Source of the DNA: Methylorubrum thiocyanatum
GTDB taxonomy: Bacteria; Pseudomonadota; Alphaproteobacteria; Rhizobiales; Beijerinckiaceae
Length of the DNA: 64,000 bases
NCBI GenBank assembly: GCA_014138645.1
Contig: JACJIB010000010.1
Location: 62,001-126,000 of the forward strand
Direction of reading: 5' to 3'
This document shows, one piece after another, positions 1,838-9,142 of the stretch. The stretch's first letter is position 1. Every line of letters begins with the position of its first letter. The notes under the pieces are model-generated. The model ran no database searches. It was not told the origin of the DNA and saw only the letters and a list, made by a program, of their open reading frames with translations. Made by a program: the position numbers and the translations under genes.

Positions 1838-1884
1838 CCTCCCTACCTTGGGCTCATCCGCAACGAACGAAAGGAGGTGATCCA
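1838..1884 (+). promoter_or_regulatory. Extended Shine-Dalgarno with possible sequestering strand
   Basis: GAAAGGAGGTGATCC at 1869-1883 is a 15-base match to the complement of the conserved 3' tail of bacterial 16S rRNA. It ends two bases before a GTG codon. A CCTCC at 1838-1842 upstream, and ACCTCC at 1933-1938 inside the ORF, could each pair with the GGAGG core. The downstream pairing can extend to about nine pairs (GGAGGTGAT with GTTACCTCC, two wobbles). The two pairings would exclude each other, as in a translational switch. The sequence matches are direct; regulation is inferred. Confidence 0.6.
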
Positions 1885-1953
1885 GTGTCTCATTGTCATC
1901 AGCCGTCGCCGACGACCAAGGCCTGGACCGTTACCTCCGGCGTGTGCGCCTAA
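1885..1953 (+). CDS. Putative 22-residue peptide with near-complete anti-SD complement
   Basis: GTG start two bases after an exceptionally long Shine-Dalgarno sequence, then 21 sense codons and TAA. The peptide begins (V/M)SHCHQPSP and ends AWTVTSGVCA. It has two cysteines and two histidines, and no hydrophobic span. No gene follows on this strand for about 900 bases, and a 12-bp GC-rich hairpin closes the segment at 2006-2033. It therefore looks like a free-standing small transcript rather than a leader for a neighbour. Function unknown. The ribosome-binding site is the main reason to believe it is translated. The alternative is a structured small RNA in which the ORF is incidental. Confidence 0.55.
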   Translation: MSHCHQPSPTTKAWTVTSGVCA

Positions 1954-2005
1954 CGCATTCGCGGGATTACGACAGGTTTCGTCGGACTGACCGGTTCGAC
2001 AATGG

Positions 2006-2033
2006 AAGGGCCGCCCCCATCGGGGCGGCCCTT
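2006..2033 (+). terminator. 12-bp perfect hairpin, terminator-like
   Basis: AAGGGCCGCCCC and GGGGCGGCCCTT pair perfectly around a CATC loop. No strong T-tract follows on either strand, so it may be a poor intrinsic terminator or an RNA 3'-end stabiliser. It lies 52 bases after the 22-codon ORF and 46 bases past the stop of the minus-strand gene at 2080-2598, so it could serve both. Confidence 0.55.
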
Positions 2034-2060
2034 CGCATGTTCGGGGTGTCGGAAGGCGCT

Positions 2061-2884: not shown

Positions 2885-3106
2885 ATGGCGCCCGCGAACG
2901 ACACCACCCTTCGCATCGAAGATGCGGTCAACGACCTCTGCCCCTGGTCGGGCAAGCCGATCGTGCCCGAGGCGCTGACCCTCTACAACGGCGCGGTGGT
3001 CGGCTTCTGCGACGCGGCCTGCCGTGACAAGTTCGCCCGCGCGGTGGCGGCCTTCGAGGATGCGCTGCGCGCGCGCCGCGTGGCCAATGCCGGCCTCCAC
3101 CAGTAA
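2885..3106 (+). CDS. Small YHS/TRASH-like metal-binding protein
   Basis: A 73-residue protein with the pattern CPWSGKP near residue 19, then an NGAVVGFC segment and CRDKF. This Cys spacing and the G-x-V-V-G-F-C signature resemble YHS/TRASH-type metal-binding modules, which often bind zinc or other transition metals through three or four cysteines. No other domain is present. It ends 16 bases before ffh, so it may be the first gene of the ffh transcription unit. Its role is unknown; a metal-sensing or chaperone role is only inferred from the fold. Confidence 0.65.
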   Translation: MAPANDTTLRIEDAVNDLCPWSGKPIVPEALTLYNGAVVGFCDAACRDKFARAVAAFEDALRARRVANAGLHQ

Positions 3107-3122
3107 GGACCTCTGAACCCGC

Positions 3123-4685
3123 ATGTTCGAAGGCCTTTCCGACCGCCTTTCCGGCATTCTCTCCGGGCTGACGCGCCGCGGCGCGCTGACGGAAGCCGAC
3201 GTCACCGCCGCCATGCGCGAGGTGCGCCGCGCCCTGCTGGAGGCGGACGTCGCGCTCGAAGTGGTGCGCTCGTTCACCGACAAGGTGCGCGAGAAGGCGG
3301 TGGGCGCCGTCGTGCTCAAGTCGGTGACGCCCGGCCAGATGGTCGTGAAGATCGTCAACGACGAGCTCATCGCGATGCTCGGCACCGATGCCAGCGTCGT
3401 CGACCTGAACGCCCCCGCCCCCGTCGCCATCCTGATGGTCGGCCTCCAGGGCTCGGGCAAGACGACCACCACGGCCAAGATCGCGCGCCGCCTGAACCAG
3501 CGCGAGAAGCGCCGGGTGCTGCTCGCCTCCCTCGACACCCGTCGCCCCGCGGCGATGGAGCAGCTCGCGGTGCTGGCCAAGCAGGTCGAGGTCGAGAGCC
3601 TGCCGATCGTCGCCGGCCAGTCGGCGGTGCAGATCGCCCGGCGCGCCATGGAGGCCGCCCGGCTCGGCGGCTTCGACGTGGTGATGCTCGACACCGCCGG
3701 CCGCACCACCGTCGACGAGGGCCTGATGGCCGAGGCCGCCGAGGTGAAGGCGGCGACGAACCCGCACGAAGTGCTGCTGGTGGCCGACGCGCTCACCGGC
3801 CAAGACGCGGTGAACACGGCGCGGGCCTTCGACCAGCGGCTCGGCGTCACCGGCATCGTCCTGACCCGCATGGACGGCGATTCCCGCGGCGGCGCGGCGC
3901 TCTCCATGCGCGCCGTCACCGGCAAGCCGATCAAGCTCGTCGGCGTCGGCGAGAAGGTCGACGCGCTCGAAGAGTTCCACCCGCAGCGGGTGGCCAACCG
4001 CATCCTCGGCATGGGCGACATCGTCTCGCTCGTCGAGAAGGCGGCCGAGACCATCGACCACGAGCAGGCCCTGCGCACCGCCGAGAAGATGCGGAAGGGC
4101 AAGTTCGACCTCGAAGACCTGTCGATGCAGCTCGCCCAGATGGAGAAGATGGGCGGCATCGGCGGCCTGATGGGGATGCTGCCCGGCATGGGGCAGATCA
4201 AGAAGCAGGTCGAGGGCGCCAATCTCGACGAGAAGATGTTCAAGCGCCAACGCGCCATCATCTCCTCGATGACGGCCCAGGAGCGCAAGAACCCCGACCT
4301 CCTCAAGAACAGCCGCAAGAAGCGCATCGCGGCGGGCGCCGGCGTGAAGGTCGAGGAGATCAACAAGCTCCTCAAGATGCACCGGACCATGGCCGACATG
4401 ATGAAGGCGATGGGATCGGGCAAGCGCGGCGGCATCGGCCAGGCGCTGGGCAACATGTTCGGGCTGGGCGGCGGCACGCCGGGCGGCCTTCCCGGCGGCA
4501 TGAAGCTGCCCCCGGGCATGCCCGAGCCGACGCCGGAGCAGATCGCCGAGATCGAGAAGCAGTTCGGCGGCAAGCTGCCGCCGATGCCGGCGGGCCTGGG
4601 CGGCGGAAAGATGCCGGGGCTTCCGGGCCTGGGCGGTCCGAAGCTGCCGGGGCTGGGCGGCTTCCTGCCGGGTAAGAAGAAATGA
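3123..4685 (+). CDS. ffh: Signal recognition particle protein Ffh (SRP54)
   Basis: A 520-residue SRP GTPase that binds signal sequences of nascent membrane and secreted proteins with 4.5S RNA and docks on FtsY. The N domain comes first. The G domain follows with [15 protein letters not shown] (P-loop, from about residue 106), DTAGRT (about 190) and [13 protein letters not shown]. The methionine-rich M domain includes [12 protein letters not shown]. The tail from about residue 440 is an unusually long Gly/Pro/Met-rich extension, longer than in enteric Ffh (about 450 residues). It overlaps the chorismate mutase gene by four bases (ATGA), indicating translational coupling. Confidence 0.97.
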
Positions 4686-9039: not shown

Positions 9040-9130
9040 GAATCCTTGAAAACGCCGCTTGCATTGCGGCGCGCGATCCGTCATTGCCGGCGGCGGGACA
9101 CCTCCCCCCAACGGGAGGCGCTCATCTGGA
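9040..9130 (+). promoter_or_regulatory. Candidate structured leader of serC (serC-motif position)
   Basis: The 174-base gap before serC holds two clear hairpins. CGCCGC/GCGGCG (9053-9058 and 9066-9071) has a 7-base loop, and CCTCCC/GGGAGG (9101-9106 and 9113-9118) has a 6-base loop. The serC start follows 24 bases later. A conserved alphaproteobacterial RNA, the serC motif, is described in exactly this position before serC-serA operons. I cannot match its consensus from memory, so identity with that motif is an inference from position and the two-hairpin layout. Confidence 0.45.
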
Positions 9131-9142
9131 AGGATGGCTGAC

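Follow-up and report, generated by a model that had tools for sequence, protein, structure and literature searches.

We found that a short unit at positions 1838..2033 of the window (the whole 64,000-nt stretch of Methylorubrum thiocyanatum DNA analysed here) is a member of the already known RNA family CC2171 (RF01867), and that this RNA is probably to be recognised as a small mRNA which carries an imitation of the 16S rRNA tail. The initial annotation, which had described a free-standing ORF behind an exceptionally long Shine-Dalgarno (SD) sequence at this place, was confirmed as a real observation; the family had been missed there. Judged from the sequence, there is about an even chance that this free-standing RNA of ~180 nt works as a translation-initiation switch, a reading that is well founded in the genus of the window and patchier elsewhere. 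If the proposal is true, the RNA would be a natural monitor of free 30S subunits or of the accessibility of the 16S tail, for which these bacteria are not known to us to have a dedicated RNA sensor, and a widespread alphaproteobacterial RNA would gain a testable mechanism. The parts of the unit are as follows.

1844..1849 (+): likely -10 element, TACCTT, suggested by eye from the upstream regions
1861..2031 (+): match to RF01867 (CC2171) over the full model length, 96.4 bits
1869..1885 (+): extended SD, 17-nt perfect complement of the 16S rRNA 3' tail, predicted duplex -32.8 kcal/mol
1885..1953 (+): 22-codon ORF with GTG start at 1885, codons 1885-1950 and TAA stop 1951-1953
1891..1897 (+): 5' arm of the closing helix of the SD-open fold, pairing with 1998-2004 (minimum-energy fold; also drawn in the Rfam model)
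1919..1938 (+): internal 16S-tail mimic (AGGC and CUGGA, a CCG bulge, UUACCUCC), 17 bp with 1873-1885 and 1887-1890 (RNAalifold of 27 units, duplex test of L003, fold of the window RNA)
1998..2004 (+): 3' arm of the closing helix, GACAAUG (minimum-energy fold, Rfam model)
2005..2034 (+): terminator-like hairpin of 13 bp that closes the unit (fold; conserved in sister units)

The 22-codon ORF, which encodes VSHCHQPSPTTKAWTVTSGVCA, could be read directly in the sequence and stands free, as had been claimed. The unit ends with the hairpin, and 2080-2751, the next ORF of gene size, lies on the opposite (minus) strand, with no regulated gene downstream in the same transcript as in an attenuator or leader-peptide arrangement; the peptide, as read from the sequence, is also without the hydrophobic stretch of a type I toxin. 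The closing hairpin had been given as 12 bp and proved to be 13 bp long, and neither a T run of the consensus terminator type nor a consensus terminator was found at 2005-2034. At the place of the likely -10 element, other units read by eye TACCTT, TAACTT, TATAGT or CATAAT, a scan for the sigma-70 consensus returned no sites on either strand, and the 5' end of the window RNA is expected near 1855. The same layout recurs among the units collected here, namely a promoter-like region, CAAC.., the SD, the start, mostly 14-30 codons, the stop, 17-121 nt and a GC-rich hairpin; 151 of the 171 units had a called hairpin. A 20-bp unit (TCAGCGCTGCTGGACTTGGT) is repeated about twice in tandem at 2060-2105, where the minus-strand ORF 2080-2751 has its 3' end. 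Other Rfam RNAs on the forward strand of the window are an ffh RNA (RF01793, 62.3 bits) at 2793-2845, ~40 nt upstream of a 73-codon ORF (2885-3106) that is followed by what we take to be an Ffh-like gene (ORF 3123-4685), and a serC leader (RF00517, 67.2 bits) at 9091-9142.

Membership in the family is given by the covariance model, since the score of the unit exceeds the RF01867 gathering score of 75 and the alignment spans model positions 1-159 of 159, and the Rfam consensus of this Caulobacter sRNA agrees with the window unit in the SD, in the start codon and in the first codons. Landt et al. 2008 is said to be the source of the family, which the Rfam table labels 'Gene; sRNA'. The search of related genomes that had been proposed earlier came out in favour of conservation, with a match at E<=0.001 in all 37 genomes of the genus (36 of them above the cut-off) and in 48 of the 61 genomes searched overall. 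Two above-cut-off matches each were seen in genomes G014 and G016, and two matches each in G072 and G672. By pattern, AGGAGGTGATCCARTG was found in 38 of 385 alphaproteobacterial genomes and AAGGAGGTGATCN{0,4}RTGTC in 75 of them (reversed control, 2), and the gap between SD and start, for which 0-4 nt were allowed, was 2 nt in all but one of the matches listed. The strong-SD start AAGGAGGTGATCNNRTG occurred in 49 of 86 alphaproteobacterial genomes, at least one of which (L213) reads like a match inside a gene, compared with 8 of 213 genomes from the rest of the Pseudomonadota; the reversed pattern gave 0 of 299. An SD scan of named genomes returned at least 116 loci, and 11 of the 80 titles listed are plainly not alphaproteobacterial. 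Because most loci were fetched by the exact SD pattern, SD conservation among them is partly circular. In the less biased set of 20 covariance-model matches, GGAGGTGATCC is kept in 18 and the full GAAAGGAGGTGATCCA in 16 by our own reading, the model itself rewarding the SD. In the literature, CC2171 appears in the accessible parts of a Mesorhizobium sRNA list and of the Rfam 15 paper, and two earlier predicted Caulobacter ncRNAs, unnamed in the part available to us, are reported as translated (Schrader et al. 2014, PMC4117421), which, together with the S. meliloti protein SEP1 described below, hints at translation of the unit.

The SD of the unit was described earlier as a perfect 15-base complement of the 16S rRNA end (GAAAGGAGGTGATCC, 1869-1883), and the match in fact runs on to 1885. 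The resulting 17 nt, GAAAGGAGGTGATCCAG, are the perfect complement of CTGGATCACCTCCTTTC, the 16S 3' end as taken from three gene ends (L179-L181) in two genomes of the same genus, the other 29 of the 31 genomes in that search, G000 among them, yielding no 16S end. Helix 45 precedes the single-stranded tail of 16S rRNA, and the match covers nearly all of the tail after this helix. The GTG start includes the final base of the match, and only one base (A1884) stands between GATCC and GTG, not two as had been stated. A given 15-mer is expected ~1e-4 times per 64 kb (by arithmetic with equal bases), and a 14-mer with up to two mismatches would give 0.21 matches in the window. In the genome of the window, AAAGGAGGTGATCC has one exact occurrence and one match with a mismatch, and the related motif AGGAGGTGATCCARTG is found there at two sites, of which the second (L057) lies in sequence that seems to continue as a long open frame. 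An origin of the motif from a 16S gene on the opposite strand was ruled out, since the sequence of the unit does not run on into that of 16S rRNA. As an observation apart, ORFs of 9-16 codons behind a perfect SD were seen in L071, L072, L074, L080, L081, L102 and L119, which are by title Planctomycetota and Krumholzibacteriia contigs, together with what we assume to be Myxococcota. In the duplex test described below, L080 gave p 0.040, L071, L072, L074, L081 and L119 were not significant, and L102 lies outside the 73 representatives; L141 and L156 resemble these outlying units.

The pairing between SD and ORF codons, which had been suggested as a possible switch, looks like an evolved feature by RNAalifold, by a duplex test and by matching changes in the SD and its partner. 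First, in the RNAalifold consensus of 27 distinct Methylobacterium units, the TWxVAS codons form a helix with the SD, the spacer and the start in which no pair has more than one broken cell; its changes are all on one side, since the SD side does not vary. About nine pairs had been proposed, and while the pairing itself stands, its extent is larger in the window fold, comprising 17 bp in three blocks: GGAGGUGA (1873-1880) with UUACCUCC (1931-1938), UCCAG (1881-1885) with CUGGA (1923-1927), and GUCU (1887-1890) with AGGC (1919-1922). In relatives, CUGGA..UCGCCUCC imitates CUGGAUCACCUCC of 16S rRNA with three extra bases, and in other lineages the mimic lies partly in the 3' UTR. The second partner proposed for the SD, a CCTCC at 1838-1842, is just ahead of the likely -10 element and is thus probably not transcribed; among the same-genus sequences viewed by eye, it was present only in the locus of the window and in L003.

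Second, the predicted duplex of the SD with its own body was compared with dinucleotide shuffles in 73 representatives, which were selected from the 171 units on ORF length, on the presence of a called hairpin and on an ORF identity of less than 75%, and are not independent by descent. The duplex was significant (p<0.05) in 24 of them and above this threshold in 49. By class, significance was reached in 16/34 SHCH units (the class of the window), 5/13 MSS units (one of the five, L080, being a Krumholzibacteriia contig), 3/10 Rhodobacterales, 0/1 Bradyrhizobium, 0/12 other and 0/3 exported units, and L003, which is near-identical to the window unit, gave p 0.010. Two tests of this pairing were run, and the bulge-allowing duplex test replaced a plain contiguous-complement test of bodies against the SD, which was weaker (0.205 of the 73 representatives at p<0.05). 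A bipartite 16S-tail motif, written after the units were seen, was found in 16 of 95 representatives, compared with 1.7 (sd 1.3) in shuffles, with 12/44 in SHCH, 4/25 in MSS, 0/11 in Rhodobacterales and 0/14 in other units. Literature searches with CC2171, with AGGAGGUGAUCC and small RNA, and with mimic terms, which mostly did not extend to subscription journals, returned no earlier description of a 16S mimic.

Third, a Rhizobiaceae-like clade has one extra A in the SD (GGAAGGUG), giving GGAAGG, and a CUUCC partner stands shortly past the stop in all 12 of these units. Any YYUUCC was found in 12/12 GGAAGG units and in 20/201 GGAGG units, and a strict set of four heptamers, written after the 12 units were seen, in 12/12 and 1/201, respectively. 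The looser [AG][CT]CTTCC gave 11/12 and 8/201; seven of these eight GGAGG units share a single peptide type (MSSDF..., for example L075 and L218). (A/C/G)CCTCC was found in 0/12 GGAAGG units compared with 82/201 GGAGG units. The SD of this clade has thus left the perfect 16S match and yet retained its internal partner. As the units form one clade, the change was likely a single event, and CUUCC is also present in some GGAGG units (of the L218 type), which lack the extra A. A second matching change is suggested by eye when L240 and L260 (SD GGUGGUCCAG, ORF CUGAGGCC) are compared with Bradyrhizobium (GGUGAUCCAG and CUGGGAUC).

The window RNA has two predicted folds of nearly equal energy, -88.2 kcal/mol with the SD mostly open and -86.1 kcal/mol with SD-CCUCC pairing forced closed; the gap of ~2 kcal/mol does not exceed the folding error. 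When the RNA was folded as it grows, all 3/3 Methylobacterium units were predicted to hide the SD over the interval of ~58-100 nt past the start and to expose it again with the 3' UTR present. In the window RNA, this hiding sets in with the emergence of the mimic. Among the nine of ten units for which this was computed (L052 had no called hairpin), L113 behaved alike, L042 never closed, L063, L070 and L049 ended closed, and L092 was mostly closed throughout. Hiding of the SD is not a general rule, since its openness over the 73 representatives equals that of shuffles (0.28 and 0.27, p=0.44); it is class-specific instead, with a closed SD (openness <=0.02) predicted in 10/10 Rhodobacterales-type representatives and openness >=0.30 in 23/34 SHCH representatives.

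The peptide types differ by lineage, with VSHCHQP..TW.VASG in Methylobacterium, VSHC..TWILAS..VRAA in other Hyphomicrobiales, VSR..LERGVGT (18 aa) in Rhodobacterales, VS..KRCHLAGIAR (14 aa) in Bradyrhizobium, and MSSE..EQPL and MS(N/S)EIS..RQPS in units that we guess to be Rhizobiaceae-like and in others. At a permissive E of up to 0.1, nine of ten loci belonging to the other types still matched RF01867 weakly, and a GCAGCC element near the stop is common to the Rhodobacterales and MSS types (25 of 36 representatives, shuffle mean ~1.3). Of 37 Rhodobacterales-type units, 34 (e.g. L063, L070) lie downstream of one conserved gene family, presumably transporter-like, on the same strand. Synteny was rejected as proof of common origin across lineages, because the large clusters of shared neighbours stay within one class; one such cluster of 33 has a single outside member, and the other mixed clusters are small. 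In L032, L115, L150, L164, L045 and L091, the same SD stands before exported-looking ORFs of 56-59 codons (MSHGA..LLTAG, VRISAFVLAAA), which suggests that it drives a longer product in some lineages.

Against the idea of a conserved small protein, the ORF is kept and its amino acids hardly are. Single-base codon changes on minimum-spanning trees of eight groups comprised 121 synonymous and 248 non-synonymous changes in frame (0.328), compared with synonymous fractions of 0.295 in frame +1 and 0.326 in frame +2, so the synonymous-change analysis that had been proposed earlier gave no clear coding signature. The in-frame fraction is slightly above the neutral expectation of 0.26-0.29 (121/369 against ~0.283, p 0.057), so weak selection on the peptide is possible. 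In the larger groups the codon positions change about equally, and an excess is seen in one small group, MSSE26, where 14 of 28 changes are synonymous. The length of the ORF is constant in groups that were defined by nucleotide similarity alone, with 18 codons in 38/38 Rhodobacterales-type units (stops TAG 20, TAA 9, TGA 9) and 14 codons in 14/14 Bradyrhizobium-type units (TAG 9, TGA 3, TAA 2); in contrast, length varies in the 66 units that start like that of the window, which have 21-27 codons and all three stops. Constant length with all three stops and without a coding signature would fit selection on being translated and terminated more than selection on amino acids. We infer that the peptide is incidental and that ribosome loading is what counts, which suggests that the ORF is kept for being translated.

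An ordinary small-protein gene, with a functional peptide, a strong SD for high expression and the structure as an autoregulatory detail, is therefore unlikely, and it is still the best placed of the rival explanations. The peptides do recur within clades (VSHCHQP..TWTVASG in Methylobacterium), the MSSE26 excess and the exported-looking proteins of the six loci speak for it, and an S. meliloti protein may belong to the family. SEP1, as described in the part of its paper available to us, has 23 aa and a pI of 4.18, is conserved in Rhizobiaceae, gives a Western signal and has the highest translation efficiency among 54 Ribo-seq sORFs (PMC10117765). Of the 12 Rhizobiaceae-like units, five have 23 codons and seven have 24, and 11 encode peptides with a pI of 4.1-5.9, so by length and pI, compared by description and not by sequence, SEP1 may be one of them, which is a guess; literature searches with MSNEIS, MSSEIS, VSHCHQ and VSHCLS returned no relevant occurrence. 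However, the pooled in-frame fraction equals that of frame 2, the peptides differ between lineages, and the TWxVAS stretch coincides with the 16S-tail mimic. By eye, KRCHLAGIAR also overlaps the mimic, its sole representative not being significant in the duplex test (p 0.11). The unit also warns that what looks like a conserved peptide in a very short ORF may reflect a signal in the RNA.

The anatomy of the unit favours a sensor or switch. In the switch we propose, the RNA would alternate between a fold in which the mimic hides the SD and one that leaves the SD free and pairs the ORF with the 3' UTR. A 30S subunit with a free 16S tail would displace the mimic (predicted -32.8 compared with -22.3 kcal/mol for the SD with its own body), the perfect 16S complement giving it an edge over the mimic at the shared site. 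Translation of the ORF would then unfold it and release the 3' UTR strand. Candidate outputs would be the stability of the RNA, a freed RNA segment acting in trans, or the holding of 30S subunits. A more specific version, which we put forward tentatively, is that of a dedicated alphaproteobacterial RNA sensor of initiation-competent 30S subunits, in which one RNA carries the complement and an imitation of the 16S tail, the imitation would compete with 30S subunits for the start site, and a content-free ORF would turn loading into a refolding read by the RNA itself.

Binding without control, that is, a ribosome decoy whose tight hold on 30S subunits slows or buffers initiation elsewhere and whose ORF merely lets ribosomes run off, is improbable in our view. 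It would account for the 17-bp complement (-32.8 compared with -11.6 kcal/mol for the core AGGAGG) and for the free-standing unit with the next gene-sized ORF on the other strand, but it would need high abundance and no SD-hiding mimic, and the mimic with its matching change argues for control rather than constant capture. We hold it similarly doubtful that the RNA is a trans-acting sRNA with translation of the ORF as a by-product and with its 3' UTR or freed 16S-tail-like strand pairing with other mRNAs: the Rfam class is sRNA, and the 3' UTR of the Rhodobacterales type, with an SD predicted to be uniformly closed, holds a CCACCUCC-like strand that pairs with the SD and, once freed, could bind the SDs of other mRNAs, but in the class of the window the mimic sits inside the ORF, where ribosomes would cover it.

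Compared with known systems, the proposed switch has several distinct features. In SD-sequestering riboswitches, ROSE thermometers and hok-type mRNAs, an anti-SD hides the SD, a signal frees it, and folds change as the RNA grows. In contrast, the window unit has no downstream gene and no known ligand. Its predicted temperature response appears weak (SD openness 0.11 at 10 C, 0.43 at 37 C and 0.50 at 55 C). In Staphylococcus aureus, extended SD helices are reported to fit into initiation complexes (PMC13009471). In Flavobacterium rpsU, the autoregulated bS21 gene, extended SD-16S pairing is reported to favour ribosomes that lack bS21 or have an accessible 16S tail, with helices of 9-13 bp and -14 to -21 kcal/mol and, in the accessible part of the paper, no description of an internal tail mimic (PMC9976891). 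The window unit shares an exceptionally long SD-16S helix with rpsU (17 bp, and -32.8 kcal/mol by a different method), but it has a 22-codon ORF whose peptide is not bS21, and it carries the mimic. Among experimental systems, rpsU is the nearest parallel to the switch proposed here.
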